In this document: piece by piece, positions 49,137-56,382 of the stretch | How the letters are laid out: each line of letters opens with the position of its first letter | How positions within the stretch are numbered: position 1 is the first letter of the stretch | NCBI GenBank assembly: GCA_027623015.1 | Contig: JAQBVR010000002.1 | Coordinates: 1-64,000, forward strand | Source: a bacterium | GTDB taxonomy: Bacteria > Patescibacteriota > Gracilibacteria > Peribacterales > Peribacteraceae | Direction: 5' to 3' | DNA length: 64,000 bases | Made by a program: the position numbers and the translations under genes | The notes under the pieces: generated by a model | Databases searched by the model: none | The model's input: the letters and a program-made list of their open reading frames with translations, nothing else | Told to the model about the DNA's origin: nothing

Positions 49137-49213
49137 GGGCCACTAGCTCAGCTGGTTAGAGCACCAGACTTATAAACTGGCGGTCCTGAGTTCAAGTCTC
49201 AGGTGGCCCACCA
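49137..49213 (+). tRNA. tRNA-Ile (UAU), CCA encoded
   Basis: Acceptor GGGCCAC/GTGGCCC, D arm GCTC/GAGC, anticodon stem CCAG/CTGG with loop CTTATAA giving anticodon UAU (an A31-A39 mismatch closes the loop), T arm CTGAG-TTCAAGT-CTCAG, discriminator A, CCA encoded. It reads AUA directly. Most bacteria instead use a CAU tRNA modified by TilS. TATAAT at 49122-49127 is the likely -10. The tRNA borders an accessory island. Confidence 0.9.
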
Positions 49214-49283
49214 ATTACTTTATGGCTTATGGAAGCCAATTGTAAGTAATCTAAGCTTGGGAAACACTCAGTCTGCGGAACCT
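49207..49283 (+). repeat. Direct repeat copy A: tRNA-Ile 3' end plus flank, att-like
   Basis: CCCACCAA, a 7-nt variable spacer, ATGGCTTA, GAAG and, ~35 nt on, AACACtCAGtCTGcGGAaCC. The same ordered blocks recur at 51096 with identical spacing over the first 30 bp. Copy A includes the last bases of tRNA-Ile, as in integration sites. Confidence 0.6.
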
Positions 49284-49342
49284 ATTCTCATGAGAGTCTA
49301 TTTAGGCAAGCGTAAAAACCGTGGATCTGCTATAATGTTCTG

Positions 49343-50953
49343 ATGACTGACGAAAACAAAAAACTTGAAGATACGACGATAAACATTGATCAGATCGATC
49401 AATGTCGGAGCTTTGATGAACTCAGGCAAAGTGCTTTGTTTCGACAGTTCATGAGAATATTCTACAGGAAGCATCCAGAACTCTTTTCGTTGGAAAAAGC
49501 TGGGGAGGTACTATCGGAAGAAGTACTTGTTGATTTCTTTGCCACTCATCCAAGTATTTGGAATGAAGCAGAAAAATTCTGGAAAAATGACATACGGAAG
49601 GAAGGCAATAGTCTCGATAGTTTTCAGCTCGCACAAAACATATCGAATCATATTAGAGAATTGATAGCCCATGCCCTACAACAGGGGGGACTACACTTGG
49701 CAGAAGGTGAGGATGCAAGCAAAATTTTTGATTTTGATTCACAAAAAAACAGACCAAACAGAGCATGGCAACCAGAGTTTTCGAATCCTGATGATGTTGT
49801 AGGAAATGGCATTGCTGAAATGGGATTTGATCTCAGTCCTGCCATTCAAGCAGCCAGAATTCCCAGAGAAGGTGATGAAGGATACACTGAAGTACCAGAT
49901 GAATTGTACGAGGCCACGAAGAAATGGCTGGAGAAAACACACAACGGTTGGGAAGTACACAATAAAGACATCATCTATATGCGAGATTCTTTGACAGCAG
50001 TTCAAGAAGCAGTGAAAGCATTCACGGGTACAAGAATCACAGGCACCTTCAGAAAAAAAGAGGAGAGGGGTAACGTTGTAACGTGTACGCCTACCTACGG
50101 CGGACTCTTACATCACCCAAAAAAGGTATTTGGCACAGACACCAAAACGATCCCTTTGATAAACAGCGGAGAGCAACTCATCATTGATACAAATGCGCTG
50201 CAAATTACTCTGCAAAAGGGCGATGTATTTATTCTCTGCAATCCCCAAAATCCAGGCGGGCATGTCTACAGTAGATCTGAATTATTGGAGATCAAAAAAA
50301 TATGTAAACAGAAAGAAGTAAAAATAATCATCGATGAGCTCCATGACGGCCTCGTCTTCGATGATAATTTTGTCTCAATGGGAAGCCTGTACGAGGGAGA
50401 AGAAAATCCAACGGCTACACTTCTTTCGACGGGTAAGTCATTTAACCTGAGTGATCAGCCTTGTCACATGATGGTGATACCAGATAAGGATATGCGTCAG
50501 GCATTTAACCGCAATCGTATTCAAGCATTAACGCCGACAGCCATTCCAAATCGAGCCGCCATTGCTGCATTTGAACAGAGTGATGAGTGGCGAATAGAAC
50601 TTCTACATTATCTGCATGGAAATGCCGATTACCTTTACGATCGAATCAAAGCAATGCCCGGACTGAAAATGGTCAAACCACAAGCAACATACCTCGCGTG
50701 GATTGATGCACGAGAGGCCGGACTTGAGGAGGCTATAAAGAAAGAATTTACAGAAGATGACCCGACACAGAGAGGACCGGCTGACTATTTTGAAAAAGTC
50801 GCAAATGTTGCAGTTTTAAACGGTAGTAATTTTGATACCAGTGGAGCAAGCAACATGTTCTTCCGTCTCAATTTTGCAGTGCCACGATCAGAACTTAGGG
50901 AGATGCTCGATAGAATTGAACGAGCACTGCCCAAAGGCAGGAGAGGCGCTTGA
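49343..50953 (+). CDS. MalY/PatB-like PLP-dependent aminotransferase/C-S lyase with N-terminal extension
   Basis: 536 residues. The C-terminal ~380 match the MalY/PatB subgroup of fold-type I enzymes: CNPQNPGGHVYSRSEL, DELHDGLVF, the PLP lysine in STGKSFNLS, and ATYLAWIDAREAGL. These act as cystathionine beta-lyases or aminotransferases. About 140 extra residues at the N-terminus are acidic/helical with no recognised domain. TATAAT ends 6 nt before the ATG (leaderless), though its -35 is poor. It is flanked by two diverged repeats of the tRNA-Ile 3' end, as if inserted as a unit. Confidence 0.85.
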   Translation: MTDENKKLEDTTINIDQIDQCRSFDELRQSALFRQFMRIFYRKHPELFSLEKAGEVLSEEVLVDFFATHPSIWNEAEKFWKNDIRKEGNSLDSFQLAQNISNHIRELIAHALQQGGLHLAEGEDASKIFDFDSQKNRPNRAWQPEFSNPDDVVGNGIAEMGFDLSPAIQAARIPREGDEGYTEVPDELYEATKKWLEKTHNGWEVHNKDIIYMRDSLTAVQEAVKAFTGTRITGTFRKKEERGNVVTCTPTYGGLLHHPKKVFGTDTKTIPLINSGEQLIIDTNALQITLQKGDVFILCNPQNPGGHVYSRSELLEIKKICKQKEVKIIIDELHDGLVFDDNFVSMGSLYEGEENPTATLLSTGKSFNLSDQPCHMMVIPDKDMRQAFNRNRIQALTPTAIPNRAAIAAFEQSDEWRIELLHYLHGNADYLYDRIKAMPGLKMVKPQATYLAWIDAREAGLEEAIKKEFTEDDPTQRGPADYFEKVANVAVLNGSNFDTSGASNMFFRLNFAVPRSELREMLDRIERALPKGRRGA

Positions 50954-51002
50954 TTCAACATAAATATTCGGCAGTTCAGATAACAGCCAAACCTCGGAGC
51001 CA

Positions 51003-51110
51003 TCACGCCATCCTCAACCCCCGCAGCCTCTTCAGCACGTCGTTCCCTTTCAGGAACTGATAAATCTCCCTCAGTTCAGAAAGCAGCTTCCATGTCCCAC
51101 CAAGTGTTGT
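51003..51110 (-). pseudogene. Possible C-terminal gene remnant in the 370-bp gap
   Basis: The 370 bases between the PLP enzyme and the GT fusion hold no full gene. On the minus strand, the last ~35 codons of a short frame read GGTWKLLSELREIYQFLKGN... and on to a stop at 51003, which looks like a genuine helical C-terminus. The sequence before it is the repeat copy B, so the rest of the gene is missing. Family not identified. Confidence 0.3.
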
Positions 51111-51169
51111 ATGGCTTACAGAAGACATCTTACAAATTTTGAGTTCGGAAAACACCCAGCCTGTGGATC
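51096..51169 (+). repeat. Direct repeat copy B, att-like
   Basis: Repeats the block order of copy A: CCCACCAA, ATGGCTTA, GAAG, AACACcCAGcCTGtGGAtCC. It is diverged but collinear and lies on the far side of the PLP-enzyme gene. It may be the other end of an integrated unit. Confidence 0.55.
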
Positions 51170-51323
51170 CAAATGAATCAATTAAAAGCAAACATAATGT
51201 AAACTCTGGATATGAAAAAACTCTCTAATCTTTTTATAGCTGGTTTTCTTGTCACTTTTCCTTTGAGATGAGTGGTGCTACCTTTATAATTTCTGGCCGA
51301 GTACCAACGATAAAAGAAAGCAT

Positions 51324-53138
51324 TTATTGGGTGGGTCTGCGCATAAGAGTGTTGTAACGCCCGATATTCGCACGCAGTTCTTCCTGTTCTTTTTCTTCGG
51401 AGCCTGAGTGCGACGGGAGATTGATGCTGTAACTTCCGCAGGAAAGAACGGGGATAATCTTTGCACCCTTCGTGAGTCCCACCGCCCCAAAGTACGTATC
51501 TTCCATGCCCCATCCTCTAAACTCCTCCGAGAAGCCCCCGATCTTTTCAAACATATCTTTCGTGACGGAGACGAAATACGTAGCGTACATCGAAGGCAAA
51601 TCGTAGGGGCCTATGCGCCTCCCATAGCCGTACTTGCGGAAATTATCCGTGTCCTTGAGAATTTCTACTGTCACATCAAATGGATAATCCGAACCGGGTG
51701 ATCCTGCGGGGATCGTTTCTGATGTGCGAAACTCATTGAACGTCTCAGGTTTCGGTAAAGGCTCCTGTCGCTCATAGTACGGGTGCAAATCTTTCTTCAC
51801 GTCAGCAGGAAAAACGTTAGCGACGAGCGACGTGTACAGTTGATCGGGCGCTAGCTGGTTGCGTACTGCGTGTTCTCGCAGGGAATTGCCAGACAGCAGA
51901 TTATCCGCATCCAGGAAAACCAAAATATCGTGTGAGGCATTATTTGCACCGATATTCCTTGCCGAAGACCTGCCACCGTTTTGCGGGCAGGTGATGAGCT
52001 TCAAGCGGAACCGATACTGTTTCCCCTCAAGCATCTCTTTGATGTCATCCTTCGACCCATCATCAACCACAATGACTTCAACATTCTTCATTTCCTCTTC
52101 CGAGAGATTCTGAAGTTCGATGGATTGTAGCACATCCATGATGGTGCTGGCCGAGCGATAATACGGAACGACGACAGAGACCGGATAAAACGGCGTACCC
52201 TGCTCCATAGTCTCAGTATCATCAAGTTCTCTTCCTGTCCGCTTACGAAAATTCCTGCCTATCTCTGAGTAATCATTGGATGTCGAATTCACTTGCCCTT
52301 GAATGGAATCGGCGGACACGCGCATCCTTTCTTCCAAAAATGTTCTCGCCCGTTCGAGAATGGAGAGCCACTTGGGCACATCAATGCCCGAAAGATCAAA
52401 AGAATGTACTCGCCCGTAATCATCTTTGTACTCCTTTTCAATCTTAGCCTTATAGACATCCCAACACTGGAAGTACAATTCCTCGGGTAAGACAGCCTCA
52501 CCACTTTCCTGAAGCGCCTTGATCTGCAGTAGCAGGAGCAACGTAATATCCTGACCGCAGAAAACTACGAGTTCTTTCTCGTGCCCCGCATGGGCATCGG
52601 CCAGTAACTTCTCCAGAAACGTATATTGTCGAATCAAAAAGTCTGCTTCTGACTCACCAATCGAATCGAATTTTCCAATCAGTTTTGTTTCTTTTTTTGA
52701 GCCCGTCCACGGATCGCCAAATCGGTAGCCAATATTCTTGTCTCCGAATGTAGCTTCACAAAATGTATCCCATGCATCATCCAATGCCTGCAAGCGATCA
52801 CCGTCTTTGAAATCAGGAGGCACAGAGGGCCGACCCTGATTAAAATGCGTCAAATCATCCTCGGGGCTGATGGTGGTGGTGATACGCTCCGAAAGCGCGG
52901 CACCGACTCTCCTAGCCGATTCTGCTGTACGCTGTAGACTGGGAGAGTAAAGGATTTTCACACAATCGTGTCGTGTGCTCTCCACAGCATCTAGGAGTGT
53001 GGTGACAATTTCCGCTTCGCGTTGTTCATTGATTCCATCATTCACCAATGGACTATCCAGAGCATGCGTTTTTAGGGCATCGACATCTTGCAGATGTCGG
53101 AATCCCAGAACCGTGCGAGGAAGTGTCTTGTCAGACAT
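51324..53138 (-). CDS. Histidine-phosphatase-like domain fused to GT2 glycosyltransferase
   Basis: 604 residues. Residues ~1-260 look like the histidine phosphatase superfamily (GFRHLQD for the RH motif, a NDG segment, YSPSLQRTAESA), but the second catalytic His region reads FCGQD, so activity may be lost or altered. Residues ~325-600 are a GT-A glycosyltransferase 2 domain: VSVVVPYYRSASTI, VIVVDDGSKDD, FLDADNLL (metal-binding Asp residues) and GWGMEDTYFG (galactosyltransferase-C type). Cytoplasmic, no membrane helix. Second gene of an operon after the alpha/alpha-barrel gene (12-nt gap). Confidence 0.75.
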   Translation of the reverse strand: MSDKTLPRTVLGFRHLQDVDALKTHALDSPLVNDGINEQREAEIVTTLLDAVESTRHDCVKILYSPSLQRTAESARRVGAALSERITTTISPEDDLTHFNQGRPSVPPDFKDGDRLQALDDAWDTFCEATFGDKNIGYRFGDPWTGSKKETKLIGKFDSIGESEADFLIRQYTFLEKLLADAHAGHEKELVVFCGQDITLLLLLQIKALQESGEAVLPEELYFQCWDVYKAKIEKEYKDDYGRVHSFDLSGIDVPKWLSILERARTFLEERMRVSADSIQGQVNSTSNDYSEIGRNFRKRTGRELDDTETMEQGTPFYPVSVVVPYYRSASTIMDVLQSIELQNLSEEEMKNVEVIVVDDGSKDDIKEMLEGKQYRFRLKLITCPQNGGRSSARNIGANNASHDILVFLDADNLLSGNSLREHAVRNQLAPDQLYTSLVANVFPADVKKDLHPYYERQEPLPKPETFNEFRTSETIPAGSPGSDYPFDVTVEILKDTDNFRKYGYGRRIGPYDLPSMYATYFVSVTKDMFEKIGGFSEEFRGWGMEDTYFGAVGLTKGAKIIPVLSCGSYSINLPSHSGSEEKEQEELRANIGRYNTLMRRPTQ

Positions 53139-53150
53139 AACGCAAAATGA

Positions 53151-54416
53151 TTAGACGAGTAAATCAAAACGTTCACCCGGTTTCGGGATCAAATTTTTGT
53201 TTTGATACAGAGCAAGTGCTTGCAGAGCGAATGCCGTGGCCCAGAAGTTCACATGCTCATGCGTCTTACTGTAAGCGATACCTCCTTTCTCTGAACCATT
53301 ATCCGCGTTCGACTGGTAGCGCAGAAGTATATCCTTCAGTTGCTTGAGTTTCTCGTCATTGGAATAGAGAAGCCCCATGCGCAAAACCTGCGCGATGACA
53401 TCAGATCGCTGGAAGTTGCTGAACTGGCCTGTAGCCGGATAATAGACCTCATTGATTCCATTTTGGTCCACATGTGCCAGCGCCCACTCAGTCGCCTTCC
53501 TTGCTGCTTCGATGAACTCCTGTTTTCCGAAAACCGAACCGGCATAGGATAGTCCTTCAATTGCGTAACAGTGAGGATGCAGATGTGTGCAAAGCGATGC
53601 ATCATCCGTCACGAATCTTCCGCTGCCATCTTGCTTTGTCAGTGCGTAATCGCACGCTCTGATAGCCGAATCCTTGTACTGCTCATCTCCAGTCAGCTCA
53701 TACATATTCGTCAGACCGATGGCATTTTTTGCATGGAAGCTGCCAGATTGAGTAGACCACTTCTTCGTGGAGTTTGGCACTTCTCCGGTCTTCTCATTGT
53801 AAATTGCCATAAACGACCCATCCGGCTTCTGCATGGTATTCACGAGGAAGTCCGCCATCTTTCTAGCCTCGGTCAGGTATCGTTCATTATGAGTAGCTTT
53901 GTATAGATTGGTGAACCCATCCAGCACCATTGCCGTATCGAAGGAGAAGACATTGCCGCCTGAGAATGATGTGTGCTCATCTACTGCCTTGTCATCAATG
54001 AAATAGCGGGTCTTCACACCGCCGCACTCGCTCATCGCTTTTTGCATGAGCCAGTCAGCAGCTTTTTCCGCTTGGCGGAGGTATTGCTCATCTCCATAGA
54101 GCTTGTAGAGATAGAGGAAAGTGGTAATGGCGTACCCCGTGATTTCCGAATACAGGTAGCTATGCTCGTTCTTCTCCGCATCGTACCAGGCATAGACGCC
54201 GCCATCCGGCGATTGGATTTCCGAATGAGCCATCCACTCCGCGATGGCCTTCACGGGATCGTGTTCTAATCGTTCTTTGGTTCCGATTGCTGTTGCCTGA
54301 AGAACGCTACTGATTACCTGCCCCGGCTCTGCGATAGAGCTAGTTCTATTTGCTGCTTGAGGCAAGATTTCCGCTACATTCTCCTCTTTCCCTGTTTGTT
54401 GTTTATCAGGAAGCAT
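53151..54416 (-). CDS. (alpha/alpha)6-barrel protein, glycoside-acting enzyme candidate
   Basis: About 421 residues. Repeated helical-hairpin units (YLYKLYGDEQYLRQAEKAADWL, LYKATHNERYLTEARKMADFL, MYELTGDEQYKDSAIRACDYAL) define an alpha/alpha toroid as in AGE epimerases, GH88/GH105 or GH127-type enzymes. A conserved HLHPHCYAIEG is a possible active-site block. No signal peptide. The start is taken at the fourth codon of the ORF (54416), because TAAAAT of a TTGACA-17-TAAAAT promoter overlaps the first ATG. First gene of the operon with the GT2 fusion, so it may act on the same sugar chain. Confidence 0.65.
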   Translation of the reverse strand: MLPDKQQTGKEENVAEILPQAANRTSSIAEPGQVISSVLQATAIGTKERLEHDPVKAIAEWMAHSEIQSPDGGVYAWYDAEKNEHSYLYSEITGYAITTFLYLYKLYGDEQYLRQAEKAADWLMQKAMSECGGVKTRYFIDDKAVDEHTSFSGGNVFSFDTAMVLDGFTNLYKATHNERYLTEARKMADFLVNTMQKPDGSFMAIYNEKTGEVPNSTKKWSTQSGSFHAKNAIGLTNMYELTGDEQYKDSAIRACDYALTKQDGSGRFVTDDASLCTHLHPHCYAIEGLSYAGSVFGKQEFIEAARKATEWALAHVDQNGINEVYYPATGQFSNFQRSDVIAQVLRMGLLYSNDEKLKQLKDILLRYQSNADNGSEKGGIAYSKTHEHVNFWATAFALQALALYQNKNLIPKPGERFDLLV

Positions 54417-54423
54417 ACTTGAC

Positions 54424-54452
54424 ATTTTACACTATTTAACATATTATGTCAA
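54424..54452 (-). promoter_or_regulatory. Promoter of the island glycan operon
   Basis: Minus strand TTGACA (54452-54447), 17-bp spacer, TAAAAT (54429-54424). A leaderless start at 54416 follows. This host-style promoter suggests the operon is expressed here. Confidence 0.65.
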
Positions 54453-54607: not shown

Positions 54608-55129
54608 ATGAAGAAGCTCCTCTCTTTCGACGCCGAGACCAATGGGCTGTGGGGCAAGACGTTCGCCATCGGCGCTCTCGTCTACGACGAGAATGGCGTC
54701 GAGGTGGCCCGCTTCGTCGGTCGGCTGCCGGACACGGAGGTCACCGACAACTGGGTCAAGGAGAACGTCCTGCCGCAGATCACCGGGATCACCGTCACCC
54801 ACGACACATACGAGGCGCTCCTCGCCGACTTCGCGGTCTTCTACAAGGCCAACAAGGAAGGTGCGGACGTTCTCGTACACATGGGGTACATCGTGGAGGC
54901 GGGTTTGCTCCGCGACATGCACTCCAACGGCGTCATCGGCGACTGGGACGGTCCCTACCCGATGCTCGACGTGTCGGGCAACCTGCAGCAGGCAGGCGAA
55001 GACCCGACGTCGGTCGACAGCTACATGAAGAAGTACGAGCTGTCGGCTGGAGAGTTCGAGGGCGGAACGCACAACCCGCTCTACGACTCCGCGGTCGCGG
55101 CGGTCGTCTACCGCCACCTGCGGAACTAG
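54608..55129 (+). CDS. DEDD-type 3'-5' exonuclease-like protein, horizontally acquired
   Basis: 173 residues with an RNase H-like exonuclease plan: FDAETNGLWG (first acidic pair), a middle Asp around PMLDVSG, and HNPLYDSAVAAVVYRHL (His...Asp, DEDDh type). Base composition is visibly GC-rich, with nearly all third positions G or C, unlike every neighbour. It has a true Shine-Dalgarno (AAAGGA 8 nt before the ATG) and a canonical terminator, both unusual here. The source is probably a high-GC bacterium or its phage. An assembly chimera should be excluded. Confidence 0.8.
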   Translation: MKKLLSFDAETNGLWGKTFAIGALVYDENGVEVARFVGRLPDTEVTDNWVKENVLPQITGITVTHDTYEALLADFAVFYKANKEGADVLVHMGYIVEAGLLRDMHSNGVIGDWDGPYPMLDVSGNLQQAGEDPTSVDSYMKKYELSAGEFEGGTHNPLYDSAVAAVVYRHLRN

Positions 55130-55157: not shown

Positions 55158-55199
55158 AGCCTCAGTGACTCCTTCGGGAGTTGCTGGGGCTATTTTTTT
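55158..55199 (+). terminator. Rho-independent terminator of the GC-rich cassette
   Basis: AGCCTCAGTGACTCC-TTCG-GGAGTTGCTGGGGCT with a T7 run at 55193-55199. A stable UUCG tetraloop hairpin, the most classical terminator in the window. Confidence 0.9.
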
Positions 55200-55269
55200 G
55201 TGGATAGATTGAATTTGTATCAGGCAGCATGTGTCCTTAAAAGCAAGTTTGAGATAGGATTTGTTTTAC

Positions 55270-55737
55270 ATGAGCATTAAGAATCAACTTCAAGATGTGC
55301 ACAGTCGCATCATGGCAGCCGATAGGTCCGAAGACCTAAAAAAATTGCTGCCATTTGAGCTTCTGCCTCTTATTGAAGAAAACGACATCCTCAACAAGTT
55401 CTTCACAGAGCATCTTGAGTACTACGAAAAACTTTCAAAGGACAAGAAGTACCTCGATCTCATCAAGGAAATCCACGATTTGATGAGGCAGCTGCATGAA
55501 GTGATTGACCCTTCGAGACTTCCAGACTCTCCCCGATTGCTCGCGCCAAAGCGCGAAGATCCGGAAGATGAACCATGGATTCCGATGAAAGAGCTTCATG
55601 CCATGCTTATTGATGAAAAATCATGGTGGTACTTGGGAGGTGTGACAATTATGTCTGTTGAGGACTCCGTGAAATGTCCGTGGAATCCTATTATTAGACA
55701 GTACGAGATTGCCTTAGGTCTAGTGAGAACGTGGTGA
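55270..55737 (+). pseudogene. Hypothetical gene truncated by the transposase element
   Basis: From the ATG at 55270 the first ~120 residues look like a genuine helical, charged protein (KNQLQDVHSRIMAADRSEDLKK). The last ~25 residues cross into the DNA that precedes the transposase frame and overlap it. The natural C-terminus is therefore probably lost. Family not recognised. Confidence 0.45.
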
Positions 55738-56284
55738 AGAACCTGCTCATGGAAACAGAGCTGGAGAGACCGAACCACATCTGGGTCACGGACTTCACGC
55801 ACATCGACTGGGGCAGTACCAAACTCTATTTCTGTACGATGATGGATCTCTTTACGAGGAGAATTGTAGGATTCTCTGTGCTGACGAATCACAGCGTACA
55901 GCTCATCATCAATGCGCTCTTTTCTGCCATCCACAAGCATCCTCCTACGGAGATTCTGCATTCAGATCGAGTGAGTGAATACACCGGCAAAGATATGAAG
56001 ATGGTTCTCTTCTGTCTTGGAACAGCGCAATCCATAAGTGCCGCAGGATGCCCGTGGGAGAACGGCTACCAAGAATCCTTCCACAACCAGTTTAAGATTG
56101 ATCTGGGTGACCCAAACAGATGTTCTTTTTTGGAGAGCTGGTGTACGAAATCTACCGTTTGATCTATGTGTATAACACTTCACGGATTCACTCTGCTGTA
56201 AAGATGCCACCACAGGCGTATGCACTGCAGTATCAAACCTCTCAATTTCTCTTAGAAAAAGTGTCCGACGAAAGGGGTACTTGA
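55731..56284 (+). mobile_element. 5'-truncated, frameshifted DDE (rve/IS3-like) transposase
   Basis: The frame encodes an integrase-core domain: HIWVTDFTHI (first Asp), HSDRVSEYTG (second Asp; the usual Gly after Arg is Val), and CPWENGYQESF (Glu). The ORF ends at 56160-56162, but the -1 frame from a T6 run (56126-56131) continues GELVYEIYRLIYVYNTSRIHSAVKMPP to a TGA at 56282-56284, the normal IS3-type C-terminus. The HTH-bearing N-terminal half is missing upstream, so this is an element fragment. No matching terminal repeats found. Confidence 0.8.
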
Positions 56285-56382
56285 CACTCCGTACTAAGTG
56301 AACGAAGTTTGTCTTGGGTTTTTGCTGAAGTCTCAGCATTGCGATTTCTTTGATTTCTTCCACAGCTATACTAATAGATTAC

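Follow-up and report, generated by a model that had tools for sequence, protein, structure and literature searches.

Whether unusual genes that sit side by side in a bacterial genome also act together is the question raised by a locus in a Peribacteraceae bacterium (Patescibacteriota; Gracilibacteria). The locus lies in a 64,000-nucleotide stretch of DNA (GenBank assembly GCA_027623015.1, contig JAQBVR010000002.1, positions 1–64,000), which was analyzed as a whole and is referred to here as the window. Three genes are at issue: one for a pyridoxal 5´-phosphate (PLP) enzyme of the MalY/PatB type, one for a protein resembling α/α-toroid sugar enzymes (the barrel), and one for a fusion of a degenerate histidine phosphatase to a glycosyltransferase (GT). 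A preliminary description of the sequence had suggested that all three could serve to make a modified glycan or glycoconjugate by an undescribed pathway. Our data support this suggestion for the barrel and the fusion and not for the PLP enzyme, and the explanation that we favor on balance is that the barrel and fusion genes constitute a laterally acquired, two-gene cassette for glycan assembly.

The barrel and fusion genes form a rare, recurring pair

All three open reading frames (ORFs) are intact and lie beside a tRNA-Ile(tat), as initially described (Table 1). The barrel and fusion genes are both on the minus strand, the barrel being read first and the fusion following 12 bp later, whereas the PLP gene is on the opposite strand and converges with the pair. 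The three genes had also been taken to be richer in G + C than core genes; this proved correct for the pair, in which the G + C content at third codon positions (GC3) is 0.52 for the fusion and 0.55 for the barrel (z scores of 2.9 and 3.4), above all 42 other measured ORFs of the window (mean 0.348, maximum 0.459), but not for the PLP gene, whose GC3 of 0.385 (z of 0.6) is unremarkable among them.

The co-occurrence analysis that the preliminary description had proposed likewise separated the genes: the barrel and fusion recur together, while the PLP gene occurs without such linkage. Specifically, homologs of both members of the pair are found on one 31.5-kb contig of Candidatus Uhrbacteria RIFOXYC2_FULL_47_19, an ultra-small bacterium and a distant relative, with identities of 66% for the barrel and 51% for the fusion. 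In that genome a single strand carries, in order, an exonuclease-type gene, a 265-residue ORF, the barrel, wecB, a Mac/hexapeptide acetyltransferase gene and the fusion, so that a UDP-GlcNAc 2-epimerase (wecB) and a sugar O-acetyltransferase sit between the two homologs. The barrel and fusion almost certainly form a unit.

The pair is rare. The Uhrbacteria protein is the one close homolog of the barrel among ~380 sampled Patescibacteria, ~35 genomes of the same family yielded no full-length match to either protein, and 381 genomes from the class of the Uhrbacteria contributed a single, more distant barrel and nothing else. The fusion was searched for in 59 relatives, in five barrel-bearing genomes and by pattern scans, making its rarity less firm than that of the barrel; the Uhrbacteria protein was its only true relative in the pattern scan of the genome collection, the second match, from a Bryobacterales genome, being a chance pattern in an ordinary glycosyltransferase locus. 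Because searches of the sampled relatives turned up no close homolog, the pair looks laterally acquired, and its GC3, foreign to the window, points the same way.

The fusion joins a degenerate histidine phosphatase to a GT2 glycosyltransferase

From about residue 317 to its C-terminus the fusion is a GT-A fold glycosyltransferase of family GT2 (Pfam, E 2e-22), with a further Pfam match to Glyco_transf_7C (E 2e-7). The D360-G361 and DAD motifs are kept in both known copies of the protein, those of the window and of Uhrbacteria. A PDB sequence search identified chondroitin synthase as the best solved relative (E 5e-13 over residues 303–560), in an alignment that takes in the DNxR and WGxED stretches.

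The N-terminal region is more divergent. Its Pfam match to histidine phosphatases is below significance (E 0.037 over 47 residues), Pfam reported no histidine phosphatase in the Uhrbacteria homolog, and a PDB sequence search with the N-terminal ~300 residues gave no match. We therefore compared the region by hhalign with a profile built from ten annotated histidine phosphatases, which had been found in plasmid records with the Escherichia coli GpmB sequence. This comparison gave a P value of 2.8e-6, a probability of 76% and a score of 33.4, against scores of at most 10.4 for 30 column-shuffled controls, and it supports the fusion originally proposed. The alignment pairs RHL, QRTAESA, GES and FCGQ of the fusion with RHG, GRTRRTA, GES and SHG, respectively, of the histidine phosphatases. 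Arg14, His15 and Arg70 are retained in both copies, and the glycine of RHG is replaced by leucine. The second catalytic histidine (SHG) is gone from both: the replacement first noted in the window, FCGQD (F193-C194-G195-Q196-D197), has its counterpart in LCTQS of the Uhrbacteria protein. The position of the general-acid glutamate of histidine phosphatases is not conserved either. With the second histidine lost in both copies, a canonical phosphatase cycle is unlikely. Binding of a phosphate group by the pseudo-phosphatase domain is possible. A fold search with a structure model of the fusion returned nothing significant; phosphoglycerate mutases recurred weakly in it and were not used as evidence. 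No description of a histidine phosphatase–glycosyltransferase fusion was found in the literature searched and, as far as these limited searches show, this combination of a pseudo-phosphatase with a glycosyltransferase has not been described before.

The barrel resembles toroid sugar enzymes

Consistent with its first description as an intracellular α/α toroid, the barrel gave partial Pfam matches to the toroid families GH76, C5-epim_C, pectate lyase, GH88, GH127 and AGE (N-acylglucosamine 2-epimerase, PF07221), and visual inspection revealed no signal peptide. GH76 is both its best Pfam match (50.6 bits, cut-off 25.9) and its best PDB sequence match; the AGE match, at 21.7 bits, is below the gathering score of 23.4. 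If these rankings are taken at face value, the barrel would not be an isomerase but a GH76-type glycosidase, similar to endo-mannanases, that turns over glycan in the cytosol. However, the GH76 match covers only positions 131–259 of the 366-position profile, and in the one alignment that spans the GH76 catalytic pair, a weak and local one, FNDD is faced by FSFD, the first aspartate thus being replaced by phenylalanine. The fold search, moreover, puts sugar epimerases first: with a barrel model of modest confidence (predicted local distance difference test, pLDDT, 58), the top Foldseek neighbors were cellobiose 2-epimerase, GH76, D-mannose isomerase and AGE. We thus consider a GH76-type glycosidase unlikely.

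These fold neighbors recall two haloarchaeal proteins. Agl32, a C5-epimerase of N-glycans, is predicted to be all-helical, and its closest published fold neighbors are cellobiose 2-epimerase, D-mannose isomerase and AGE (PMC13308652). The second, AglQ, takes part in N-glycan assembly as a soluble, isomerase-like protein (PMC3827465). We propose that the barrel is an isomerase/epimerase or a trimming enzyme of glycan assembly; isomerase activity in particular is a tentative assignment, somewhat short of even in our estimation. Tyr98, His283, Gly291 and Trp395 are among the positions that do not vary across eight aligned barrel relatives, and inspection of this alignment by eye did not reveal conserved histidines equivalent to the catalytic ones of AGE.

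Most distant barrel relatives lie in glycan loci

Most of the distant barrel relatives examined, from Patescibacteria and haloarchaea, are located in polysaccharide or nucleotide-sugar loci (genes in the Patescibacteria loci were assigned names by visual reading of their sequences, apart from those scanned with Pfam). In G686 the relative is directly flanked by a formyltransferase and a GT4 glycosyltransferase, with an aminotransferase and a flippase nearby. G239 has a wecB–GT4–barrel gene run, G145 a methyltransferase and a glycosyltransferase close to the relative, and G173 a run of nucleotide-sugar dehydrogenase, Gfo/Idh-type, acyltransferase and DegT genes just downstream of it. The haloarchaeal relatives are near aglF, a dehydrogenase and wecB in Halobellus, near aglF and glycosyltransferases in Halomarina and, in Haladaptatus (a relative found via the Halobellus protein), near wecB, a dehydrogenase and GT4 glycosyltransferases. 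A role for the pair in glycan assembly, backed by gene context in two lineages and by these relatives, is likely.

Several observations weigh against the cassette explanation. The pair is known from two genomes only, and wecB and the acetyltransferase, which accompany it in Uhrbacteria, do not adjoin it in the window. The eight aligned barrel relatives, the Uhrbacteria protein aside, are just 20–36% identical to the window protein, and around one of them, in the Patescibacteria genome G390, no glycan genes were seen by eye. Neither the GH76 nor the AGE catalytic residues are clearly conserved in the barrel, and its link to AglQ and Agl32 is one of fold neighbors and context. Structure prediction, the other check proposed at the outset, was usable for the barrel and too poor for the fusion (pLDDT 39), so that docking of an acceptor by the phosphatase domain, considered below, is read from sequence.

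Possible traces of a mobile vehicle

A DnaQ-like exonuclease-type gene of phage type diverges from the pair, with the motifs DxET and HNPLYD and a GC3 of 0.90 in a window of 43% G + C. It is 80% identical in nucleotide sequence to the copy beside the Uhrbacteria pair, and it adjoins the pair in both genomes, but in opposite relative orientation. The gene is rare: among the ~380 sampled Patescibacteria, 4 others gave a match, in two cases a close one, and relatives are carried by 6 IMG/VR viral contigs, in one case near an integrase-like gene. In G183 (L067 8096–8629), a third Patescibacteria genome with the gene (64% identity), the pair is not nearby. In the Uhrbacteria copy (L050 5690–6304) the similarity breaks off suddenly past about residue 149, near the end, as a frameshift would produce. 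A terminator-like hairpin of 15 pairs (55158–55191) follows the gene in the window, and a PDB search with it returned chance matches only. We interpret the exonuclease-type gene as what a mobile vehicle may have left behind and place it outside the glycan pathway.

The pair could accordingly have arrived as a phage or mobile-element module of the moron type, altering the glycan of the host and left behind when the element decayed, a scenario that addresses the vehicle and does not conflict with the chemistry proposed here. The exonuclease-type gene, with its viral-contig relatives and its place beside the pair in both genomes, and the transposase remnant in the window would fit such an origin. 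Against it, single-protein and alignment pattern scans of viral contigs, in which distant relatives can be missed, found none of the barrel or fusion, phage records yielded no relative of the barrel, no phage structural genes were seen nearby, and the 3´ end of the tRNA has no second copy within 3 mismatches over 20 bases. An origin of this kind has a low probability in our judgment.

Proposed mechanism

In the cassette explanation, the GT2 domain would act in the cytoplasm, adding to a glycan acceptor a sugar unit (probably N-acetylhexosamine, donated by a UDP-sugar). The histidine phosphatase domain, which has lost the residue for phosphoenzyme turnover, might dock an acceptor that is phosphorylated or linked to a lipid phosphate; we hold this docking role, which is argued from sequence, to be possible, with slightly less confidence than the isomerase assignment. 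The soluble α/α enzyme would then isomerize, in the manner of AglQ or Agl32, or trim a residue of the glycan, the presumed destination of which is the cell surface. In a bolder version, a phosphatase domain that keeps the phospho-accepting histidine yet is unable to release phosphate would serve the GT2 domain as an acceptor module that bears or senses phosphate, with the cytosolic α/α isomerase editing the product. This is a long shot, although if true it would constitute a new kind of glycosyltransferase control.

The same trio of folds, GT-A, histidine phosphatase and α/α hydrolase, is found in soluble proteins of glucosylglycerate and mannosylglycerate metabolism, where the glycosyltransferase GpgS works with the histidine phosphatase GpgP on a glycosyl-phospho-glycerate-like compound. 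The pair might thus belong to an intracellular solute pathway, with the glycosyltransferase making such a compound and the α/α enzyme as its hydrolase, and indeed no membrane or signal segment is apparent by eye. The dephosphorylation step would fail, however, with the second histidine lost in both copies; the glycosyltransferase is closer to chondroitin synthase than to GpgS-type enzymes; and the wecB and O-acetyltransferase neighbors, together with the glycan loci of the barrel relatives, point to a polysaccharide. A solute pathway is hence improbable.

Patescibacteria, whose genomes are tiny, are believed to live on other cells, and the acquisition of glycan genes may be relevant to their attachment or to variation of their surface. 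In addition, the linked α/α family, with wecB as a recurrent neighbor, may extend a group of barely characterized glycan-editing enzymes from haloarchaea to bacteria.

The PLP enzyme is an independent neighbor

The PLP enzyme is a fold-type I protein of the MalY/PatB type in which Lys365 and the active-site stretches are intact (alignment with 5z0q and 4dgt). The ~140 extra residues initially ascribed to it were confirmed: the MalY/PatB-like core begins at about residue 128–150, leaving an N-terminal extension of ~130–140 residues, for which no relatives were detected among the fetched loci. Its score against the PatB C-S lyase model TIGR04350 is 201.8, under the curated cut-off of 340. In the Uhrbacteria genome bearing the pair, a search at E<=1e-5 returned no match to the enzyme, and the remaining sampled Patescibacteria gave none at E<=1e-15; other genomes contain weaker matches, which are ordinary relatives of the aminotransferase type. 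A single-protein pattern scan, which can miss distant relatives, found none on viral contigs. The longest plasmid matches, H34 and H35, are not evidence of the extension elsewhere, as they overlap the neighboring annotated gene (checked for H35).

The gene is flanked by a direct repeat of ~140 bp, the two copies of which are 63% identical (blastn within the window, E 6e-8). A repeat search of the same genome recovered the query itself only, missing the known second copy, and was thus too insensitive to judge dispersal. Because it is absent from the Uhrbacteria genome, lies on the opposite strand, has a host-like GC3 and carries its own flanking repeat, we exclude the PLP enzyme from the cassette; it looks like a separate arrival. 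A single three-gene pathway, in which the C-S lyase-like enzyme gives a sulfur- or amino-acid-derived group to the glycan, would draw on its retained catalytic residues and on the location of all three genes within 5.1 kb beside a tRNA, and is very improbable given the same absence, composition, convergent orientation and separate repeat.

Other features of the region

Between the barrel and exonuclease-type genes is a divergent pair of promoter-like sites, TTGACA-17-TAAAAT on the minus strand and TTGACA-17-TATTAT on the plus strand, each matching at 11/12 positions; such sites total 9 in the region, equal to the shuffle expectation, and are suggestive only. Since the minus-strand −10 element overlaps the listed ATG of the barrel, its true start may be downstream. 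Positions 55261–56300 hold a 158-residue ORF of unknown kind and then the transposase remnant, which continues out of frame. PADLOC matched no defense system. The 265-residue Uhrbacteria ORF upstream of the barrel (L050 4797–5594) lacks a counterpart in the window, and its Pfam matches do not rise above chance. Several glycosyltransferase matches in G044 and G055 have in-frame TGA codons, as expected from the reassigned code of some Gracilibacteria.

Table 1 Features of the locus, in window coordinates
Feature	Position	Strand	Remarks
tRNA-Ile (tat)	49137-49213	+	Directly upstream of PLP gene
Direct repeat, left copy	49204-49344	+	Starts at 3´ end of tRNA-Ile
MalY/PatB-like PLP enzyme gene	49343-50953	+	536 aa, ORF intact
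Direct repeat, right copy	51093-51229	+	Followed by short truncated ORF, ATG at 51213
Phosphatase::GT2 fusion gene (P0002)	51324-53138	-	604 aa, ORF intact; second in proposed cassette
GT-A (GT2) region of fusion	51324-52229	-	Motifs DDG (359-361), DAD (410-412), WGMED (543-547); GC3 0.57
Pseudo-histidine-phosphatase region of fusion	52230-53138	-	Residues 1-303; hhalign profile match
α/α-toroid sugar enzyme (barrel) gene (P0003)	53151-54425	-	424 aa, ORF intact; first in proposed cassette
Divergent promoter-like pair	54419-54452	both	Between barrel and exonuclease genes
DnaQ-like exonuclease-type gene	54608-55129	+	173 aa, divergent from proposed cassette
Transposase remnant, rve integrase core	55731-56162	+	Pfam rve E 7.5e-20; far end of accessory region

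Comparison with known systems

Each protein of the locus has a recognizable counterpart from which it departs. The PLP enzyme has in common with the PatB/MalY C-S lyases (TIGR04350; PDB 5z0q, 6qp3, 1d2f) the catalytic Lys365 and the NPxNPGG, DExH and C-terminal Arg stretches, and is set apart from them by its N-terminal extension of ~130 residues and its sub-cut-off score. The N-terminal region of the fusion has a profile likeness over residues 1–266 to branch 1 histidine phosphatases (GpmB, CobC type), with RH, the second arginine and GES aligned; unlike these enzymes, it is without the second catalytic histidine and the general-acid position and is joined to a GT2 domain. Residues 303–560 resemble the N-terminal GT-A domain of chondroitin synthase (K4CP, PDB 2z86/2z87). 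In contrast to chondroitin synthase, the fusion contains one glycosyltransferase domain, and a degenerate histidine phosphatase in front takes the place of the second. The barrel, finally, belongs to a bacterial cassette with a fused glycosyltransferase and no oligosaccharyltransferase seen nearby, which distinguishes it from Agl32 and AglQ. Nonetheless, compared by fold neighbors and context only, the published closest fold neighbors of Agl32 are the same as those of the barrel, and the Agl32 and AglQ genes, like those of the barrel family, sit among glycosyltransferases and nucleotide-sugar enzymes.

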